A stretch of DNA of 13,461 nucleotides from Chitinophagales bacterium. GTDB taxonomy: Bacteria > Bacteroidota > Bacteroidia > Chitinophagales > UBA2359. Location of the stretch: the NCBI GenBank assembly GCA_020629335.1, contig JAHDDN010000113.1:1-13461 (forward strand), in the 5' to 3' direction. The position numbers were made by a program, and so were the translations under genes. The notes under the pieces are model-generated. The model saw nothing but the letters and a program-made list of their open reading frames with translations. It made no database searches and was not told where the DNA came from. Shown piece after piece: positions 2,006-11,198 of the stretch (position 1 is its first letter; each line of letters begins with the position of its first letter).

Positions 2006-2055
2006 ATTATAATTATAATGAGTTGGGTAACTATTCATCATGAATCAATTTGATT

Positions 2056-3060
2056 ATGCATAATTATATTGAAGCTTCTGAGTTTTTATTATCGATCATC
2101 AGTAATATACCCTATGGTGTCATTGCCATAGATATGAATGCCTATATCACTATGATTAATGATACTGCTTTAGAAAACTTAAATATCAATAAAAATCCTA
2201 AAGCAGTCATTGAGACCTATATTATGGAATATTTTGAAAGAGATAATGAAATTACGACTTTATTAAATGAATGTTTAGAAGGTGGACGGAAAGAATTTAA
2301 AATTTCCGAATTAAGTTACAATGATAAATATTTGAACGTATATGCGAAGCCTATTTTAAATGGGATGCTAATTTCTTTTAATGATGTAACTGATAATAAG
2401 AAAGCTAAAGATGAGGCGACCAATGCCTTATTAAAAGGACAAGAGATAGAACGTATCCGCTTAGCTAAAGATATTCATGATGGAGTGGGGCCTTTATTGT
2501 CTACAATCAAACTAAATTTAGATAGTGTAAAGAAAGATATTATTGCGGAAGCTTCTCCTAAGACACAAAAAAAAATTGACCAGATGGAAGAACTAATAGC
2601 GAGTGTTTCATCAGATATACGAAGTATCTCTCATGACCTAATGCCAAGCGCTCTCGTAGATTTTGGTTTAGTTAAAGCTTTAGAAAATTACTGTGGAAAA
2701 ATCAATAACAATACAGACTTGAATGTCAACTTCCACTATCAAGGTTTAAAAAATCGGCTCGATCAAAATATAGAATTAAACCTATATAGAATTATACAAG
2801 AATTAATGAATAATTCGATTAAATATGCCAAAGCTGAAAATATATCTGTCCATATGATAGTAACTAAAGACAAAACGCTTTTACTAACAGTTGAGGATGA
2901 TGGATTAGGCTTTGATACCAAAAAATTAAAAAGATTCTCAAAAGAAGGGATTGGATTAAAAAATGTACAAACGAGGGTAGAGGCGATGAAAGGGGGTGTC
3001 AACTTAGATACTCAAATAGGAAAAGGGGTAAACTGGAATATTGAAATACCCATCCAATAA
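2056..3060 (+). CDS. NarL/DesK-type sensor histidine kinase with N-terminal PAS-like domain
   Basis: Sensor kinase that should autophosphorylate and pass phosphate to the regulator encoded 10 bp downstream. The start is taken at the ATG (2056, MHNYIEASEF); an in-frame TTG lies two codons earlier. Residues about 8-115 look like a PAS fold (NIPYGVIAIDMNAYITMIND and later ISFNDVTD). The HisKA_3 dimerisation helix carries the phospho-acceptor His141 in LAKDIHDGVGPLLSTIK. The ATPase domain (about 235-332) shows the N box (ELMNNSIKYA), G1 (VEDDGLGFD) and G2 (GIGLKNVQTRVEAMKG). There is no transmembrane segment or signal peptide, so it probably senses a cytoplasmic cue or a small molecule through PAS. 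The ligand cannot be read from sequence. The upstream gap is largely filled by structured repeat copy A. Confidence 0.92.
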   Translation: MHNYIEASEFLLSIISNIPYGVIAIDMNAYITMINDTALENLNINKNPKAVIETYIMEYFERDNEITTLLNECLEGGRKEFKISELSYNDKYLNVYAKPILNGMLISFNDVTDNKKAKDEATNALLKGQEIERIRLAKDIHDGVGPLLSTIKLNLDSVKKDIIAEASPKTQKKIDQMEELIASVSSDIRSISHDLMPSALVDFGLVKALENYCGKINNNTDLNVNFHYQGLKNRLDQNIELNLYRIIQELMNNSIKYAKAENISVHMIVTKDKTLLLTVEDDGLGFDTKKLKRFSKEGIGLKNVQTRVEAMKGGVNLDTQIGKGVNWNIEIPIQ

Positions 3061-3070
3061 ATCCACTATT

Positions 3071-3712
3071 ATGATCAAAATAATCATAGCAGACGATCAT
3101 ACTATTTTTAGAGAAGGAATAGTATCCATACTTGATGATGAGGAAGACATCAAGGTATTAGCACAGGCCACTAATGGTTTAGAATTGTTAGAACAATTAA
3201 AGTCTTGTAAACCTGATATTATATTAATGGATATTTCAATGAAAGAGATGAATGGTATTGATGCGAGTATAGAAATTGCTAAGCTATATCCTAACATCAA
3301 AATACTGGTATTATCCATGCATAACGAGATAGATTATATACTGAAAGTACTTGAAGCTGGTGCTTCTGGTTATATTCTCAAAGAAAGTGGAAGCAAAGAG
3401 TTACTTCAGGCTATTAGGAGTATTCTAAGCGGGAAAACCTATCATTCTCAAGAAGTATCAACAGTACTGGTACAACATCTCAATAAGAAACGAGACCAAA
3501 AACTCAAAAAAAAAGGAATTCCACTAACTCGCCGAGAGAAAGAAGTATTACAATTGATCGCAGAAGAATATACCAATGGTGAAATAGCTGAACAATTATT
3601 CATTAGTATTAGAACGGTAGATACACATCGACGTAACTTAATTGAAAAATTAGGTGTAAAAAATACGGCTGGATTAGTAAAATACGCCATTAAGTCAGGC
3701 TTAATTGAATAA
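3071..3712 (+). CDS. LuxR/NarL-family response regulator
   Basis: A 213-residue two-domain regulator, partner of the kinase just upstream. The start is set at ATG 3071 (MIKIIIADDHTIFREG), because the receiver domain normally begins there; a longer reading would overlap the kinase. The receiver domain has the acid pair Asp8/Asp9, phospho-acceptor Asp54 (LMDISM), Ser82 (LVLSMHN) and Lys104 (GYILKES), so it should be phosphorylation-competent. The C-terminal HTH (about 145-207) has the LuxR pattern: LTRREKEVLQLIAEEYTNGEIAEQL then RTVDTHRRNLIEKLGV. It should bind DNA as a dimer when phosphorylated. Targets are not shown; candidates nearby are the sigma factor and stress-protein genes. A weak hairpin with T-run at 3717-3736 follows. 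Confidence 0.95.
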   Translation: MIKIIIADDHTIFREGIVSILDDEEDIKVLAQATNGLELLEQLKSCKPDIILMDISMKEMNGIDASIEIAKLYPNIKILVLSMHNEIDYILKVLEAGASGYILKESGSKELLQAIRSILSGKTYHSQEVSTVLVQHLNKKRDQKLKKKGIPLTRREKEVLQLIAEEYTNGEIAEQLFISIRTVDTHRRNLIEKLGVKNTAGLVKYAIKSGLIE

Positions 3713-3839: not shown

Positions 3840-4412
3840 ATGAATCATCTTCAATTATTAACAGACACCGAATTAGTTCTTGCTTACCAAAACAAGCAAA
3901 ACAATATATATTTTGGAGAACTCTATAAACGCTTCAATCCAAAAATCTATCGATATTGCATGCAGTTGCTTAAAGATCAAGAAATGGCATCAGATGCAAC
4001 ACAAGATATCTTTTATAAAATTAGCAGTCGTTTATTAAAACTAAAATATCCTGTTACTTTTTCCAATTGGCTTTATAAAGTCGCTCATAATCACTGTATG
4101 GATCAATTGAAAAAAAGAAATTATAATTATTCCATATTAGACTATAAAATTCACGAAATCGAGAACATTGATTACGATTTTGAAACTGATAGTACCCGCG
4201 AAATACAAATCAATCAACTAAAACAATTCTTGAACACTATACCAGTTGAAGAAAAAGAATTACTAGAAGCAAAATACTTAGATAAAAAATCTATTATCGA
4301 TTTAATGAGTATCTATAAGTTATCAGAAAGTGCTGTAAAAATGCGTCTATCAAGAGCTCGACAAAAAGTAAAAAAATTATTTGGAAATAATCAGTTAGTT
4401 TTCGCTCAATAA
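3840..4412 (+). CDS. ECF-like RNA polymerase sigma factor (sigma-70 family)
   Basis: A 190-residue two-region sigma factor that should direct RNA polymerase to a small promoter set. Region 2 covers about 24-93: YKRFNPKIYRYCMQLLKD, then DATQDIFYKI (the conserved D-A-x-Q-D-x-F core) and FSNWLYKVAHNHCMDQLKKR, including the -10 recognition helix. Region 4 covers about 126-180, with SIIDLMSIYKLSESAVKMRL as the HTH and SRARQKVKKLF at its end. Regions 1 and 3 are absent, as in ECF factors. No anti-sigma gene with a membrane anchor is adjacent, so control may be transcriptional through the preceding two-component pair or by an unlinked partner. Immediately after its stop lies copy 2 of the GTGACCC-N14-GTCTT motif, a plausible target of this factor. 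The target assignment is inference. Confidence 0.92.
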   Translation: MNHLQLLTDTELVLAYQNKQNNIYFGELYKRFNPKIYRYCMQLLKDQEMASDATQDIFYKISSRLLKLKYPVTFSNWLYKVAHNHCMDQLKKRNYNYSILDYKIHEIENIDYDFETDSTREIQINQLKQFLNTIPVEEKELLEAKYLDKKSIIDLMSIYKLSESAVKMRLSRARQKVKKLFGNNQLVFAQ

Positions 4413-4415
4413 TGA

Positions 4416-4441
4416 GTGACCCTAAGACAAAAAAAAGTCTT
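4416..4441 (+). promoter_or_regulatory. ECF-type promoter-like motif, copy 2
   Basis: GTGACCC (4416-4422), 14 bases, then GTCTT (4437-4441). It begins three bases after the sigma factor stop and is the best candidate promoter for the stress-protein gene, leaving a leader of about 140 nt. Same blocks and spacing as 849 and 5730. Confidence 0.55.
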
Positions 4442-4526
4442 TGAAAAAAAGGGAATTTCTTAGTAGATTCAGTAAAGGTTATATAAAGTAGCGATTTTTC
4501 TTTAAGAGTTTAAATTGGGAACATAA

Positions 4527-4556
4527 TAGGAAGGTGGTCATTGCGTTACCTTCCTA
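4527..4556 (+). promoter_or_regulatory. Leader hairpin before the stress-protein gene
   Basis: TAGGAAGGT (4527-4535) pairs with ACCTTCCTA (4548-4556). The hairpin at 5849-5874 is its counterpart: GGAAGGT/ACCTTCC here and GGAAGAT/ATCTTCC there, a compensatory change. It sits 27 bases before the ATG and could affect translation or mRNA stability. No T-run follows. Confidence 0.55.
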
Positions 4557-4583
4557 TTTCTCAAATCAACCAAAATAATCTCT

Positions 4584-5420
4584 ATGAAAAAAATACTATT
4601 TCCAACAGAGTTTTCCTCACATGCCGCTGAGGTTTTCAACTTTGCTTCCGCAATAGCTTCTAATATCGAAGCAGAAATGATCATTGTTCATGCTTATGGA
4701 AGACCAGATCTAAAGCACGCAGCAGATTCTATCAATGATATTGTATTAGAAACCAAACTCAAAAAGGCAGAAATCAAAATGAAAGAATTTGAGAATATCG
4801 AATCTTTTAAAAGTAAAAATGTTAAAACAAGCTATCGTGTAAGAATAGGATTTCCAGCTGATACCGTTTTAGATATTGCGAATGATGATAAGGTAGATTT
4901 AATCGTTTTAGGAATGACTGGTAAAGCAGATACTATCGACAAACTTTTTGGTACCACTTCCTTACATATTCTCCAAGAAGCAAAATGTCCTGTTTTGTTG
5001 ATTCCAGCAAATGCCGAATTCACTGGTATTGAAAATATTGTGTTTACAACTAACTTCGAATTTTCCGCCATTAAAGGAATCGATTATTTAAAAAAATGGA
5101 GAGATCTTCTAAATGCAAGCTTACACTGTATTCACATTGCTCAGGATGAAGAATTTGCTGAAGAAGCAATCAAAAAATTAGAGACTCTAAAAAACACTTA
5201 TGAAAACGATTTAGAAATAGATTTCGATATGTTCATGGGCGATTTTGAAGAAGAAATTGAATTCTTCGCAGAAGATAAAAAAGCAGATATTATCGCGATG
5301 TGGGACAACAAAAAAGGCTTTTTTAAAAGGCTTATAGAAACAAACAAAATCAATAAAATTGCGCAGCAAATATCTACTCCCCTACTCGTCATTAGAGATG
5401 TCAATTACCAAAACGCTTAA
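4584..5420 (+). CDS. Tandem-domain universal stress protein
   Basis: A cytoplasmic protein of 278 residues, made of two UspA-like domains. Domain 1 (1-140) opens MKKILFPTEFSSHAAEVF and contains the ATP-binding pattern G-2x-G-9x-G(S/T) as GMTGKADTIDKLFGTT, ending CPVLLIPA. Domain 2 (about 148-274) keeps the fold pattern (IVFTTNFEFSAIKGIDYL to STPLLVIRDV), but where the phosphate loop should be it reads MWDNKKGFFKRL, so nucleotide binding is probably lost there. Double-domain Usps of this kind are common in Bacteroidota stress responses. The gene sits in its own unit: promoter-like motif at 4416, leader hairpin at 4527 and terminator at 5506. A similar unit without the coding part lies downstream at 5730-5993. 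Family call firm; the stress sensed is unknown. Confidence 0.94.
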   Translation: MKKILFPTEFSSHAAEVFNFASAIASNIEAEMIIVHAYGRPDLKHAADSINDIVLETKLKKAEIKMKEFENIESFKSKNVKTSYRVRIGFPADTVLDIANDDKVDLIVLGMTGKADTIDKLFGTTSLHILQEAKCPVLLIPANAEFTGIENIVFTTNFEFSAIKGIDYLKKWRDLLNASLHCIHIAQDEEFAEEAIKKLETLKNTYENDLEIDFDMFMGDFEEEIEFFAEDKKADIIAMWDNKKGFFKRLIETNKINKIAQQISTPLLVIRDVNYQNA

Positions 5421-5505
5421 AACACCTTATTAGATAAGTTGGGTAGCAAAGGATTGATCAAATTAAATTAATCTCTTTACCGATAGAGATTGCCCCATAA
5501 GGGCG

Positions 5506-5537
5506 GAGGCCTGACATTTGTTAGGCCTCTTTTTTTT
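5506..5537 (+). terminator. Rho-independent terminator of the stress-protein unit
   Basis: GAGGCCTGAC (5506-5515) pairs with GTTAGGCCTC (5520-5529) with one G-T wobble, a loop of four and eight T (5530-5537). A small GCCC/GGGC hairpin (5492-5504) and the block CCGATAGAGATTGCC precede it. The whole arrangement recurs at 5940-5993 with compensatory base changes. Confidence 0.9.
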
Positions 5538-5538
5538 A

Positions 5539-5696
5539 GGGCGTGCCCCTTCGGGTCGGGCTGTCCGCTCTCATGCGGCTATGTGTCTGCTACTACGCTA
5601 AGGTCCGTTTGTCTGCCACTTCGTGGCCAGCCTGCACGTACCTAAGCTTCGTAAGCAGCCCCATGACGCCACATACCGCTTCCATCCCTCACGCAC
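5539..5696 (-). repeat. Structured intergenic repeat, copy B (inverted relative to copy A)
   Basis: Read on the minus strand it starts GTGCGTGAGGGATGG and ends GGGCACGCCC, matching copy A (1830-2005) over its length. The closing stem GCGTG/CACGC and the central GCCAC-GAA-GTGGC hairpin are kept. The 12-bp hairpin of copy A is replaced by a compact CCC-GAA-GGG hairpin at the same place. It abuts the T-run of the preceding terminator and separates the two stress-protein units. No flanking target duplication or ORF was seen, so it is not an obvious insertion sequence. Confidence 0.75.
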
Positions 5697-5729
5697 AATA
5701 AATTAATCAATAAAATTTAGCCTAAAAAG

Positions 5730-5755
5730 GTGACATAAATACAAAAAAGAGTCTT
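5730..5755 (+). promoter_or_regulatory. ECF-type promoter-like motif, copy 3
   Basis: GTGACAT (5730-5736), 14 bases, then GTCTT (5751-5755). The first block has two changes from GTGACCC. The A-rich spacer and following TTGAAA also resemble copy 2. It would drive the coding-less unit ending at 5993. Confidence 0.5.
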
Positions 5756-5848
5756 TGAAATAATAAAAAATTCAGAAGCGATATTTTGGAGCAATAGATA
5801 CCGATTTTCAAATTAAACTTACTTACTAGAGTTCAGTGAGCATTTAAT

Positions 5849-5874
5849 GGAAGATGGCAGTTATGCCATCTTCC
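5849..5874 (+). promoter_or_regulatory. Leader-type hairpin in the coding-less unit
   Basis: GGAAGATGGCA (5849-5859) pairs perfectly with TGCCATCTTCC (5864-5874) around GTTA. It is the counterpart of the hairpin at 4527-4556, followed by the same CTATTTC or TATTTC run. Confidence 0.6.
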
Positions 5875-5963
5875 TATTTCCCATACGATAAAATGACTTA
5901 GGTAACAAAAGATTTATCAAATTAATTAAATCACCTTGCCGATAGAGATTGCCTGTAAAGGCG

Positions 5964-5993
5964 GAGGTCTAACAAATGTTAGACCTCTTTTTT
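5964..5993 (+). terminator. Rho-independent terminator upstream of the polyamine operon
   Basis: GAGGTCTAAC (5964-5973) pairs perfectly with GTTAGACCTC (5978-5987), loop AAAT, then six T. It is the counterpart of the terminator at 5506-5537, with a C-G to T-A pair swap. It should insulate the operon starting at 6073, which then needs its own promoter in 5994-6072. I see no clear TAnnTTTG box there, only a small dyad TAGTC-ATA-GACTA at 6039-6051. Confidence 0.85.
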
Positions 5994-6072
5994 GGAGTAT
6001 CGGGTATACTATTAGACAAAAACGAAAATACTGGGGCGTAGTCATAGACTATATCCTCACAAAGTAATAGCA

Positions 6073-7509
6073 ATGTTAACTAAAAGAAAATTATCAATGA
6101 AGAATACATATTTTGATCTAATCAATCAGAGTTATTATTTTCCACAAGAGGGCTTTGATCTTAATAATGGTTATCTCACTTTTCATGGTATATCATTAAA
6201 ATACCTGATAGATAAATATGGCACCCCATTCAAACTTGTCTATCTTCCTCGCATTGGAGAACAAATTCGAAAAGCTAGGAATTTATTTAATAGAGCTATC
6301 AAAAAAAATGCGTACAATGGCCAATATCATTACTGTTATTGTACAAAATGTTGTCATTTTTCTCATGTAGTGAAATCAGTTCTTCGTGAAAATGTACATT
6401 TAGAAACATCCTCTTCTTTTGATATTGACCTAATTTTTAACCTCTTAAATAAAGGAGAACTAAACAAAAACACTATTGTTGTCCACAATGGTTATAAGAC
6501 AGATGATTATCTAAAAAAGATTGTTCAATTAAATCAGGCTGGATTTAAAAACTCCATTTTGGTCTTAGATTCAAAAACAGAAATTCAGCGAGTAAAAAAG
6601 TATGCCTCTGAATATAAAGGAAAGCTTAAAATTGGAATTCGCATTGCAATTGATGAAGAGCCTCAGTCAGCTTATTATACTTCTAGATTAGGAATTCGCC
6701 CTACTGAGATCATAAGTTTTTATGAAAATGAAATCAAGGGGAACGATAATCTGAGCTTAAAAATGGTACATTTTTTCATTGATTCAGGAATTAAAGATAA
6801 TGTGTATTATTGGGGAGAGTTTCAAAAGGCACTTAACTTATTTGTTCAATTGAAACAAGCTTGTCCTGATATAAAAGCATTAAATCTTGGAGGTGGATTT
6901 CCAATTCGTAATAATTTAGGATTTGACTATGATTACGAGTACATGATTAATGAAATAGTGAGTAATATTAAAGCTACTTGTATGAAAGCCAAAATAGAAG
7001 AACCTGATATCTTCACAGAATTCGGAAAATTCACAGTAGGAGAAAGTGGTGCAATTATATTTAAAGTACTAGAGCAAAAGCATCAAAATGACAGAGAGGT
7101 ATGGTATATGGTTGATAATAGCCTTATGAATACGATTCCTGATGCCTGGTCAATTCTTGAAAAATTTATTTTACTCCCGGTCAATAAATGGAATAATGAA
7201 TATACCAAAGTTAATATTGGTGGGATAAGTTGTGATCATTCAGATTATTATAATTCTGAGGATTTTAATCAACAGCTATTTCTACCAAAATTTGATAATC
7301 AAGATGAAGAGCCTTTATTTATTGGCTTCTTCCACACAGGTGCGTATCAAGACTCTATAAGCGGATATGGTGGTATAAAACACTGTCTTATACCCGCTCC
7401 CAAGCTTATTATTATTGATAGGGATGAGACTGGAAATTTTGTCGATTATATATATCGAAATGAACAGACAGTTAATGATATGTTATCTATTTTAGGATAT
7501 AATGAGTAG
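6073..7509 (+). CDS. speA: Biosynthetic arginine decarboxylase, short Bacteroidota type
   Basis: PLP-dependent fold-III (alanine-racemase-like) decarboxylase converting arginine to agmatine plus CO2, the first step of polyamine synthesis. The PLP Lys is Lys92 in HYCYCTKCCHF. The barrel continues with HLETSSSFDIDL, VVHNGYKTDDYL, YYTSRLGIRP and the phosphate-binding glycines in LNLGGGFPIRN. The C-terminal beta domain carries the substrate-side motifs ISCDHSDYYN and FFHTGAYQDSISGYGG. At 478 residues it is shorter than the ~650-residue E. coli SpeA and matches the flavobacterial form, whose members usually begin M-K-N-x-Y-F-D-L-I-N-Q. The internal ATG at 6097 (MKNTYFDLINQ) is therefore an equally likely true start. 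It is the first gene of the polyamine operon, 52 bp before the SET-domain gene. Agmatine, not the decarboxylation of ornithine, is inferred from family match. Confidence 0.92.
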   Translation: MLTKRKLSMKNTYFDLINQSYYFPQEGFDLNNGYLTFHGISLKYLIDKYGTPFKLVYLPRIGEQIRKARNLFNRAIKKNAYNGQYHYCYCTKCCHFSHVVKSVLRENVHLETSSSFDIDLIFNLLNKGELNKNTIVVHNGYKTDDYLKKIVQLNQAGFKNSILVLDSKTEIQRVKKYASEYKGKLKIGIRIAIDEEPQSAYYTSRLGIRPTEIISFYENEIKGNDNLSLKMVHFFIDSGIKDNVYYWGEFQKALNLFVQLKQACPDIKALNLGGGFPIRNNLGFDYDYEYMINEIVSNIKATCMKAKIEEPDIFTEFGKFTVGESGAIIFKVLEQKHQNDREVWYMVDNSLMNTIPDAWSILEKFILLPVNKWNNEYTKVNIGGISCDHSDYYNSEDFNQQLFLPKFDNQDEEPLFIGFFHTGAYQDSISGYGGIKHCLIPAPKLIIIDRDETGNFVDYIYRNEQTVNDMLSILGYNE

Positions 7510-7561
7510 AAAATAACAAAGCACCTCATTAACAAATTTTATAATCATATAACAAACTAAA

Positions 7562-8152
7562 ATGCTACATCCGCATACCGAAGTAAAATTTTTAAATGAT
7601 GATAAAGGCTATGGTGTAATCGCAACACAAGATATCCCTAAAGGAACAATAATTTGGGTACAAGATTCTTTAGACAGGGTATTTACTCCAAAACAATATG
7701 AAGCCTTTACTCCAATATATAAGAACATACTAGATACCTACACATTTAGAAATAATAAGGGCAGTTTTATACTCTGTTGGGATAACGGAAGATTTGTGAA
7801 TCATAGCTTTAAATCCAATTGTCTTAGCACTGCTTACGATTTTGAAATTGCCATTAAGGATATCCCAACAGGCACAGAACTAACTGACGACTATGGGTAC
7901 TTAAATATTTCAGAACCATTTAAAGGAATTGACGAAGGAACTAAACGAAAATATGTATATCCTGATGACTTAAAAAAGTATTATAAAATTTGGGATAAGC
8001 AATTAATTAGTGCATTCAAGTACCTATTAGATGTTCCTCAAGATTTAAAATCTCTTATTCCAACTAATACATGGAAAGTTGCAAGTAAGATTGCACAAGG
8101 GCAAATGGAGATGAAATCTATTCTTTCACTGTATTATGAAGAAATAACATGA
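7562..8152 (+). CDS. SET-domain protein (putative lysine methyltransferase)
   Basis: A 196-residue cytoplasmic protein whose first ~125 residues form a SET domain: KGYGVIATQDIPKGTIIW at the N-terminus, FVNHSFKSNC with the SAM-site motif Asn80-His81-Ser82, AIKDIPTGTELTDDYGYLN near the end of the domain with the expected Tyr. SET proteins transfer methyl from S-adenosylmethionine to protein lysines. The post-SET Cys cluster is missing, as usual in bacterial stand-alone SETs. The C-terminal ~70 residues (KYYKIWDKQL to LSLYYEEIT) are helical and unassigned. Its last four bases overlap the agmatinase start (ATGA), indicating translational coupling and a job tied to polyamine metabolism. The substrate is unknown; it could methylate an operon product, a ribosomal protein or a small amine. 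Domain call firm, role open. Confidence 0.85.
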   Translation: MLHPHTEVKFLNDDKGYGVIATQDIPKGTIIWVQDSLDRVFTPKQYEAFTPIYKNILDTYTFRNNKGSFILCWDNGRFVNHSFKSNCLSTAYDFEIAIKDIPTGTELTDDYGYLNISEPFKGIDEGTKRKYVYPDDLKKYYKIWDKQLISAFKYLLDVPQDLKSLIPTNTWKVASKIAQGQMEMKSILSLYYEEIT

Positions 8153-8991
8153 AAACATTTGGAGAAATCCCACTAGAATATGCAACATTCGAAGAAGCTG
8201 AAATAATTCTCCAATCTATTCCTTATGACGGTACAAGTACCTGGATTAAAGGAGCTGATAAAGGATTTGATGCATTCTTAAACGCTGCTAAAAATATGGA
8301 ACTGTATGATATCGAAACTGAATTTGAGGTATATTACAAAGGCATTCATATACCTAATGAATGGTCTGGATTTAATAGTCCAGAACAAATGTTTAGTGAA
8401 GTTTATGCAAAAACTCAAAAGCTGCTTAACACAGGTAAGTTTTTGACTTTTTTTGGGGGAGAACACTCTATCAGTATTGGAATTATCAAAGCCTTCTATG
8501 AGAAGTATGAAAACCTCACGGTCTTACAACTAGATGCTCATGCTGACCTTCGCCCAAGCTATCAAGGTACTTCTTATAATCACGCCTGTGCACTTTATGA
8601 TGCCAGCCAGAATACGAATCTAATTCAAGTAGGTATCCGAAGTATGGATATATCTGAGAGAAAGCATATGGATATATATAAAGTCTACTTTGGCGATGAG
8701 ATAAGTTATTCTAATGATTGGATTAACTTTTCGCTAGCACAAATGACGGATCAAGTATACATTACCATCGATTTGGATGTTCTAGATCCAGCAATTATGC
8801 CTGCGACAGGCACTCCCGAACCAGGAGGAATGAATTGGTATACTTTGACCAACTATCTAATGACTGTTTTCGAAAATAAAAATGTAGTAGGGTTTGATAT
8901 TGTTGAGTTAGCTCCTATAGAGGGTTTACATGCTCCACAATTCTTAGCGGCCAAGTTATATTATAAAATGTTATCTTATAAATTCATGTAA
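8149..8991 (+). CDS. speB: Agmatinase / arginase-family ureohydrolase
   Basis: Dinuclear-manganese hydrolase, expected to split agmatine into putrescine and urea. All six metal ligands are visible: His106 in FFGGEHSIS, Asp129, His131 and Asp133 in LDAHADLRP, Asp208 and Asp210 in TIDLDVLDPA. SYNHAC and TGTPEPGGMNW are the other arginase-family signatures, the latter agmatinase-like. At 280 residues it has family length. Its ATG overlaps the SET-domain gene by four bases, and the next gene starts directly after its stop. Placement right after arginine decarboxylase supports agmatine over arginine as substrate; arginase or guanidinobutyrase activity cannot be excluded from sequence alone. Confidence 0.9.
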   Translation: MKTFGEIPLEYATFEEAEIILQSIPYDGTSTWIKGADKGFDAFLNAAKNMELYDIETEFEVYYKGIHIPNEWSGFNSPEQMFSEVYAKTQKLLNTGKFLTFFGGEHSISIGIIKAFYEKYENLTVLQLDAHADLRPSYQGTSYNHACALYDASQNTNLIQVGIRSMDISERKHMDIYKVYFGDEISYSNDWINFSLAQMTDQVYITIDLDVLDPAIMPATGTPEPGGMNWYTLTNYLMTVFENKNVVGFDIVELAPIEGLHAPQFLAAKLYYKMLSYKFM

Positions 8992-9966
8992 ATGAAAAAA
9001 GGAAAAATATCACAATTCATTGTAGAACACTACAAGCATTTTAATGCTGCTGCTCTTGTTGATGCAGCTAAAGAATATGAGTCTCAGATCAATAGAGGTA
9101 ATAAAATGATGATCACTATTGCTGGAGCTATGAGTACTGCTGAGTTAGGAAAATCGCTAGCCGAAATGATACGTCAAGATAAAGTACATATTATAACTTG
9201 TACTGGTGCAAATCTTGAGGAAGATGTATTCAATTTGGTAGCACATAATCATTATAAGAGAATTCCAAACTATCGTGATTTATCTCCTGAACAAGAAAAA
9301 AATCTTCTTGACAATCACTTTAATCGTGTAACAGATACCTGTATCCCTGAAGCAGAAGCAATGCGAGCAATTGAAGAGCATTTATATATTGCATGGAAAG
9401 ATGCCGATGATAAAGGCGAGAGTTACTTTCCACATCAATATTTTTATAAAATTTTATTGAGTGGAGAATTAGAGAACAAATATCAAATTAATCCTGACGA
9501 TAGCTGGGTTTTAGCTGCTGCTAAAAAGAACATTCCTATCATTGTACCAGGATGGGAGGACTCGACTTGTGGAAACTTTTTTGCCTCTTATTGCATCAAA
9601 AAGGAGCTAATTCCAAGCACCCTTAAATCAGGTATTCAATATATGATGCTATTATCCAAATGGTACCGAGAAAACACAAAAGATAATTCAATTGGATTCT
9701 TTCAAATTGGCGGTGGCATTGCTGGCGACTTTCCTATATGCGTAGTTCCTATGCTACATCAAGACCTTGAGTTAGACAATATTCATATGTGGTCCTACTT
9801 CTGTCAAATCAGTGACAGTACAACAAGCTTTGGTTCGTACTCTGGAGCTGCTCCTAATGAAAAAATTACCTGGGGTAAATTGCTTCCCGAAACACCCAAA
9901 TTCGTCATTGAATCAGATGCAACGATAGTGGCTCCATTGATATTTGCTTATGTTCTTAATTGGTAA
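8992..9966 (+). CDS. Deoxyhypusine-synthase-like protein, probable homospermidine synthase
   Basis: A 324-residue NAD-dependent aminobutyl-transferase of the deoxyhypusine synthase family. The N-terminal helix (YKHFNAAALVDAAKEYE) is followed by the NAD-fold segments MMITIAGAMSTAELGKSL and HIITCTGANLEEDVFNLV; later come IPIIVPGWEDSTCG and FFQIGGGIAGDFPICV. The catalytic Lys is conserved as Lys296 in ITWGKLLPE, aligned to the WGK Lys of the human enzyme. Bacteria lack the eIF5A substrate, and bacterial members studied so far make homospermidine from putrescine or act on other amines. Location directly after agmatinase (ATG abutting TAA) fits putrescine use. The exact polyamine product is inferred. 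The active-site region IHMWSYFCQISDSTTS departs from the eukaryotic form, consistent with a changed acceptor. Confidence 0.88.
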   Translation: MKKGKISQFIVEHYKHFNAAALVDAAKEYESQINRGNKMMITIAGAMSTAELGKSLAEMIRQDKVHIITCTGANLEEDVFNLVAHNHYKRIPNYRDLSPEQEKNLLDNHFNRVTDTCIPEAEAMRAIEEHLYIAWKDADDKGESYFPHQYFYKILLSGELENKYQINPDDSWVLAAAKKNIPIIVPGWEDSTCGNFFASYCIKKELIPSTLKSGIQYMMLLSKWYRENTKDNSIGFFQIGGGIAGDFPICVVPMLHQDLELDNIHMWSYFCQISDSTTSFGSYSGAAPNEKITWGKLLPETPKFVIESDATIVAPLIFAYVLNW

Positions 9967-10345: not shown

Positions 10346-10348
10346 ATT

Positions 10349-10438
10349 GAGTGCATGACATATTAGGTGCATAGTGATTTCAGAGATTGAGAAACCTGAT
10401 CTTACAGAATGAGGTTTCACCTGATTTGTCATGCACTC
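10349..10438. mobile_element. 90-bp MITE-like element, copy 1, with 9-bp target duplication
   Basis: The ends are perfect 12-bp inverted repeats, GAGTGCATGACA (10349-10360) and TGTCATGCACTC (10427-10438). Directly outside lie identical 9-mers AAATGAATT at 10340-10348 and 10439-10447, the mark of transposition. Inside are further stems ATTAGGTG/CACCTGAT (10362-10369 with 10418-10425) and AAACCT/AGGTTT (10392-10397 with 10412-10417), so the whole element can fold into one rod. It has no coding capacity, so a transposase elsewhere must mobilise it. The left 9-mer contains the stop codon of the DksA-like gene, which is left intact. Confidence 0.92.
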
Positions 10439-10459
10439 AAATGAATTAAAAACCTTAAC

Positions 10460-11019: not shown

Positions 11020-11025
11020 TTATAT

Positions 11026-11115
11026 GAGTGCATGACATATTAGGTGTATAGTCATTTCAGGGATTGCAGAACCTGATCTTACAGAATTAGGTTTCACCTG
11101 ATTTGTCACGCACTC
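11026..11115. mobile_element. 90-bp MITE-like element, copy 2, with 9-bp target duplication
   Basis: The same element as 10349-10438, in the same orientation and the same length, differing at eight of 90 positions by direct comparison. The ends are GAGTGCATGACA (11026-11037) and TGTCACGCACTC (11104-11115), with one mismatch between arms. Identical 9-mers TAATTATAT flank it at 11017-11025 and 11116-11124. The target differs from copy 1, so the two copies arose by separate insertions, not by duplication of one block. A 9-bp duplication is known for IS1-type and some IS4-type (IS10, IS50) transposases; the responsible family is not identified here. Confidence 0.93.
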
Positions 11116-11198
11116 TAATTATATTGTGCCAATGCATTCTCCATTAGAATTTCGCCTATGAATACAGTCAATCAACAAATCTTAAATTATTTAACTCG

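Follow-up and report, generated by a model that had tools for sequence, protein, structure and literature searches.

A universal stress protein (usp) gene of a Chitinophagales bacterium (contig JAHDDN010000113.1) is followed by a stretch that repeats the non-coding parts of its transcription unit and lacks the coding sequence, which raises the question of what this stretch is and whether it acts on the gene that it resembles. The origin of new small RNAs is an open question, and loss of the ORF only, if true, would be a direct example of one route to a small RNA, with the parent gene adjoining for comparison.

The DNA analysed, 13,461 nucleotides in all and hereafter called the window, carries, in this order, a kinase, a NarL-type regulator, an ECF-type sigma factor, Usp, an intergenic repeat, the ORF-less unit (unit 2) and a polyamine/deoxyhypusine synthase cluster. 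The intergenic repeat, of about 153 bp, is present as inverted copies (1828-1980 and 5547-5698; 80% identical) on either side of the kinase-regulator-sigma-usp block; a search of the other loci at E 1e-4 gave no match for it. Direct copies of a second intergenic repeat, of about 95 bp, were observed at 10348-10442 and 11025-11119 (90% identical); each copy is bounded by matching inverted ends and resembles a small non-autonomous mobile element. The downstream cluster (6097-9966) includes a SET-domain gene (7562-8152) within the decarboxylase, agmatinase-like and deoxyhypusine synthase genes.

The usp unit and its ORF-less counterpart

The box, leader hairpin, 3' block and terminator of the usp unit (unit 1; 4416-5537) recurred in the same order in unit 2 (5730-5993). 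The features of the two units are:

4416-4441, + strand: promoter box of the usp unit, GTGACC-N14-AGTCTT (pattern scan)
4529-4554, + strand: usp leader hairpin (folding; comparison of the units)
4577-4585, + strand: usp start region AATCTCTAT, extending over the first two bases of the start codon (ATG at 4584); paired with the tail core in the minimum-energy fold of the mRNA
4584-5420, + strand: universal stress protein, 278 aa (Pfam PF00582, E 7.5e-28)
5429-5505, + strand: part of the usp 3' UTR that is homologous to the unit 2 tail; core at 5483-5491 (comparison of the units)
5506-5535, + strand: intrinsic terminator of the usp unit (comparison of the units; terminator scan)
5730-5755, + strand: promoter box of unit 2, GTGACA-N14-AGTCTT, putative ECF-type sigma -35/-10 (pattern GTGACNNNAANNCAANAAANAGTCTT; same spacing in the relative G350)
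5763-5993, + strand: predicted ORF-less RNA of unit 2, its start taken from the box and its end from the terminator
5849-5874, + strand: unit 2 leader hairpin, 11 bp (folding; paired changes relative to unit 1)
5888-5963, + strand: unit 2 tail, in which helix C encloses helix A and is followed by an exposed core and helix B (60 of 76 positions identical to the usp tail)
5942-5950, + strand: candidate seed ATAGAGATT, antisense to the usp start region (complement of AATCTCTAT)
5964-5993, + strand: intrinsic terminator of unit 2, 11-pair stem (comparison of the units; terminator scan)

Identity between the conserved islands of the two units ranged from 71 to 83%, with 28 of 34 positions identical in the box (4416-4449 versus 5730-5763), 25 of 35 in the hairpin (4529-4563 versus 5849-5883), 60 of the 76 aligned in the tail (5429-5505 versus 5888-5963) and 25 of 30 in the terminator (5506-5535 versus 5964-5993). 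All of these parts were found where they had originally been predicted, and for each of the four islands none of 500 shuffles reached the observed score. The linker between box and hairpin (79 and 85 nt) was similar at chance level, 228 of 500 shuffles being as good, and so were the flanks, taken as 60 nt on each side of the units (279 of 500 for the upstream side, 366 of 500 for the downstream side). The original prediction that the second unit holds all the non-coding parts in order was therefore borne out, but the two units are not alignable throughout, the linker having diverged to chance. Since the islands were kept while the linker and flanks are at chance, the split is old; with linker and flanks saturated, the shared similarity serves as a footprint of what both copies kept.

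No ORF of at least 50 aa was found on the plus strand inside unit 2, in agreement with the prediction that it had none. The frames of at least 8 codons in its predicted RNA were 14, 15 and 19 codons long, the last with a TTG start and running into the terminator. From the box and the terminator we infer that unit 2 is transcribed; the RNA, put at about 230 nt by the original prediction, would extend from 5763 to 5993 (231 nt), with its own promoter box and terminator.

The tail of both units can fold into helix C (5 bp; GGTAR / TTRCC), enclosing helix A (GATTKA...), after which come an open core GATAGAGATT, helix B (GCCY / RGGC) and the terminator. The core stretch AUAGAGAUU, identical in both tails, lay outside the helices common to both copies. 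An alternative tail helix (AATCTCT/AGAGATT) was dropped, being broken in unit 2. Among the 35 stem pairs of the tail helices, terminator and leader hairpin, 25 were unchanged, 4 were changed on both sides, 5 were changed on one side yet still pairing, and 1 was broken, in unit 2. When the same 14 substitutions were placed at random, so few broken pairs were obtained in none of 200,000 placements and as many double changes in 0.05%, figures that overstate the case, since the choice of helices was based on these two sequences themselves and one gap was positioned manually.

The paired substitutions pointed out earlier, GGAAGGT/ACCTTCC to GGAAGAT/ATCTTCC and GAGGCCT/AGGCCTC to GAGGTCT/AGACCTC, are both real, and two further both-sided changes were found in tail helices absent from the earlier list. 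Judging by these paired changes, structure has been under selection since the two copies split. The same changes do not establish selection after the coding sequence was lost, because they are unpolarised and may have occurred in the usp lineage or at a time when unit 2 still contained a usp gene.

The predicted RNA (5763-5993) had a fold z-score of -4.77, none of 200 shuffles being as stable; without its terminator the z-score was -2.56, with 3 of 200 shuffles as stable. The leader hairpin was more stable in unit 2 than in usp (-19.9 versus -13.5 kcal/mol). A terminator scan of 4400-6110 returned just the two sites listed above, compared with a mean of 1.3 in shuffles; the scan by itself would not prove these terminators, which are better supported by their conservation with paired changes. 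An Rfam search of the window gave no match above the gathering threshold, and the sole match below threshold over 5700-6060 (E up to 5) was SpF03, with 22.1 bits versus 50 (E 0.57).

The promoter box and the searches in relatives

The box was found at three sites in the window, and its proposed reader is encoded between the first site and the second:

849-874, + strand: third box, preceding the lipoprotein gene at 970-1677 (pattern scan)
2050-3060, + strand: histidine kinase of the adjacent two-component system (homologue 50% identical, same gene order in G350)
3071-3712, + strand: NarL-type response regulator, REC plus LuxR-type domain (homologue 62% identical, same gene order in G350)
3840-4412, + strand: ECF-type sigma factor, proposed reader of the boxes (Pfam Sigma70_r2; NCBIfam TIGR02937 above cut-off)

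These three sites, GTGAC(C)-N14-AGTCTT, precede the lipoprotein gene, usp and unit 2, the -35 part of the unit 2 box being one base off. The pattern GTGACNNNAANNCAANAAANAGTCTT, itself written from the three window sites, occurred at a mean of 0.01 sites in the shuffled window and reached three sites in none of 200 shuffles. The relative G350, from the family of the Saprospiraceae MAG G001, contained 7 exact sites, and the reversed pattern used as a control was absent from it. Because the box was no commoner than the control in the other 19 genomes tested (6 matches versus 12), the claim for it rests on the window and G350.

The six G350 stretches examined (52,930 bases), five of which were chosen for their exact sites and one for its sigma gene, held 12 sites with at most one mismatch and no control site. 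An ATG-started ORF of at least 60 aa was located 30-192 nt downstream of 11 of these 12 sites, and a TTG-started RimB-like frame downstream of the twelfth. The genes directly after the boxes included those for three Usp, an MscS-like channel, GroEL and an AI-2E-like transporter, as well as a protein with a weak AsmA match, a sigma factor and a STAS-type protein; among those scanned with NCBIfam, GroEL alone passed its cut-off, and the Usp, MscS and sigma proteins were named by similarity to proteins of the window. The presence of the box before the lipoprotein gene and before these stress genes of G350 (Usp, GroEL and others) goes beyond what had been predicted. Five G350 stretches (L198, L199, L200, L201 and L202) were recorded as a putative stress regulon marked by GTGACC-N14-AGTCTT.

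On one contig of G350, the kinase (50%), the regulator (62%) and a sigma factor (32%) were in the same order as in the window, with a box about 73 nt after the sigma gene, a placement much like that of the window. The G350 sigma nearest to that of the window (36%, L203, versus 32% for the syntenic one) had no box in the 9 kb around its gene. STAS-type and SpoIIAB-like proteins (weak matches, below cut-off) were also observed just upstream of the G350 kinase.

The box may be an operator of the NarL-type regulator. However, only 30-38 nt lie between the end of the box and the start codon at four of the G350 sites, a distance that could hardly accommodate another promoter, and on this sequence evidence the box is best read as the -35/-10 of an ECF-sigma promoter rather than as a regulator site. 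With boxes at 5730, 4416 and 849, unit 2 would share its promoter type with two protein-coding genes, as an ECF-sigma-dependent small RNA does, and like such an RNA it has no ORF and ends in an intrinsic terminator. If true, an ECF-sigma stress regulon of Saprospiraceae would possibly include a noncoding arm; the putative regulon can be searched for by the motif GTGAC(C)-N14-AGTCTT.

The check in relatives proposed with the original prediction was carried out on 398 family genomes and on the flanks of 11 Usp homologues, and no counterpart of the tail was found. The tail core pattern was absent from all 398 genomes, conservation of unit 2 as an ORF-less gene was not found among them, and the paired units were seen in one genome only. 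A BLAST search with unit 2 gave short matches (E 0.01 or better) in 43 of the 398 genomes; the 31 matched stretches inspected, 29 of them from BLAST matches, were judged by eye to be due to chance. Two that looked more promising failed on closer inspection: one (L116) had a similar hairpin followed by TATTTC, with no box or tail nearby, and the other (L123) resembled the box end and linker, with no GTGACC before it. The covariance model of the tail gave 12 matches in 11 of the 398 genomes, and the four distinct outside matches viewed in alignment (two in L150/L161, one in L154 and one in L151) agreed well over the terminator only. A distant DNA search of the plasmid collection with unit 2 gave no match, and a pattern scan of IMG/VR for the tail core gave none.

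The closest Usp, P0002, was 80% identical, and a search with it in a draw of 295 family genomes returned a single match (37%). Among 80 decarboxylase loci, many of them with little upstream DNA, no sigma homologue passed the cut, and there were only two Usp matches (24% and 26%), 7-8 kb upstream (L009 and L022). The best decarboxylase relative among the genomes searched was 87% identical, with no closer genome apparent.

The tail core and the usp start region

The stretch AUAGAGAUU, common to both tails, matches the usp start region perfectly in antisense orientation. On the plus strand of the window, the 9-mer AATCTCTAT has a single occurrence, at 4577-4585 across the usp start codon, and its complement has exactly two, in the two tails (5483 and 5942). 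In folds of the usp mRNA from five assumed starts, the start region always paired with the usp tail; in the minimum-energy fold, 4577-4585 paired with 5483-5491 (pairing probability 0.69-0.89 per base, for the one start tested). Only 1 of 60 shuffled usp tails paired as strongly with the start region. These folds suggest a cis lock in the usp mRNA, with the tail core on the start region.

Repression of usp in trans by the unit 2 core is suggested more weakly. The longest antisense matches to unit 2 extended over 9 nt at the usp start region and over 6-8 nt at the others of the 15 start regions of the window. A match of at least 9 nt was obtained with 2 of 20,000 shuffles of the 15-nt core, the limits of which were set after the match was seen, and with 290 of 2000 shuffles (approximate) of the whole of unit 2. 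When the whole RNA was cofolded with the usp 5' region, 36 of 100 shuffled versions of unit 2 were as good, and the predicted contacts lay elsewhere, leaving the core unused. The start region was partly paired in the usp 5' part alone (unpaired 0.03-0.57 over 4576-4585), and the core was no less exposed in the isolated usp tail than in unit 2 (mean 0.79 versus 0.68).

From its sequence, unit 2 is probably a small RNA of an ECF-sigma stress regulon, for which the target and direction of effect are only proposed. It would be an old paralogue of the usp unit, without a coding sequence, in which the promoter, leader hairpin, structured tail and terminator have been retained. An ECF-type sigma, most likely that encoded at 3840-4412 under the neighbouring kinase and regulator, would start unit 2 at about 5763 and co-induce usp and the lipoprotein gene, giving a stress-induced RNA of 231 nt that ends at 5993. 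The tail core AUAGAGAUU would pair with AAUCUCUAU over the usp start codon: in the usp mRNA, the core of its own 3' UTR would fold back on the start region, and unit 2 would supply the same core in trans, so as to damp Usp synthesis during the stress that induces both. The specificity of the sigma, the pairing in the cell and the damping are what we infer from the shared box and the complementarity.

The original prediction, a small RNA that possibly acts with or mimics the usp leader, is upheld as regards an ORF-less unit with a promoter and terminator, the structure of which was kept while the linker became saturated. Mimicry of the leader only is too narrow a description, because the promoter and the 3' tail are also conserved, and because it is the tail, not the leader, that carries the antisense to the usp start.

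Alternative readings and related systems

The reading of unit 2 as a noncoding paralogue of the usp unit, co-induced by an ECF sigma and damping Usp in trans through its core, is the one we favour, tentatively and at somewhat less than an even chance. Its main rival, which we regard as somewhat unlikely, is a recently dead paralogue: a second usp gene that has lately lost its ORF, whose features were kept while it was coding and whose leftover transcript is inert. Selection since the split does not date the ORF loss, and a coding usp with the same UTRs would evolve alike; Usp paralogues are present in G350 (5 matches at E 1e-30 or better), and unit 2 lacks no more than the ORF and short flanks. 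This reading nevertheless needs a deletion both recent and clean; no coding remnant was seen in unit 2, 34 of the 35 stem pairs still pair there, and its hairpin is the more stable of the two. That an emptied stress-gene duplicate, co-induced with its sister, silences the sister mRNA in trans with the very stretch that forms the sister's own cis lock seems rather unlikely.

Conservation of both ends of the usp mRNA in unit 2, beyond the antisense stretch, and the unremarkable energy of the trans pairing would also suit a decoy, the hairpin and tail of which titrate an RNA-binding protein, an RNase or a small RNA acting on the usp mRNA. We know of no such binder, however, and as the hairpin differs at 10 of 35 positions, recognition would have to rest on shape and shared bases; we consider a decoy unlikely. 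Unit 2 lies on the same strand as the polyamine operon (decarboxylase at 6097, SET, agmatinase, deoxyhypusine synthase), and some 100 nt separate the end of its terminator from the likely ATG at 6097, so that unit 2 could be the leader of this operon and the terminator an attenuator. This is improbable in our view: the usp unit ends in this tail and terminator too, with no gene directly behind, and a scan of the 600 nt before the decarboxylase gene in 33 relatives (fewer than 600 nt being available in 4) found no box on the same strand with at most 2 mismatches. Least of all do we expect a small peptide, encoded by the 14- or 15-codon ORF over the hairpin. The usp leader has, by eye, a GTG-started frame at the same place as the 15-codon frame, but the changes in that frame over the 35-nt hairpin block number 6, 3 and 1 at codon positions 1, 2 and 3, respectively, the opposite of coding constraint.

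Literature searches for a sigma factor and universal stress protein in Saprospiraceae, and for a small or antisense RNA of universal stress protein genes with the term "Flavobacter-", returned no report, which does not prove absence from print. The favoured noncoding paralogue has likenesses in several known systems, compared here as far as the cited accounts describe them. Like the small RNAs that depend on ECF sigma factors (the sigmaE sRNAs of Proteobacteria, and FoxI and FoxJ of Fusobacterium nucleatum, PMC11005410), unit 2 would be a short RNA with an ECF-type promoter that adjoins a protein member of the same regulon, with post-transcriptional damping as the proposed role. It differs from them in being a coding-free paralogue of a regulon mRNA, predicted from sequence and belonging to a different phylum.

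In icaR of Staphylococcus aureus, for which experiments were reported, a stretch of the 3' UTR is complementary to the mRNA's own translation start region (PMC3868564). The usp mRNA resembles it in having a 3' UTR complementary to its own start region, with a stable pairing predicted between them; in usp, the pairing is predicted by folding only, and a separate RNA unit carries the same 3' stretch. As in small RNAs derived from 3' UTRs, such as MalH (PMC8081044), the tail with its terminator would be the active part; unlike these, unit 2 comes with a promoter box of its own and would not have to be released from an mRNA by processing. Finally, the PorY-PorX-SigP system of Porphyromonas gingivalis is a two-component system of the Bacteroidota that acts through an ECF sigma (PMC4800418). 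In the window, by comparison, the regulator combines REC with a LuxR-type domain, the kinase, regulator and sigma genes adjoin one another, and stress genes, not secretion genes, are the candidate targets.
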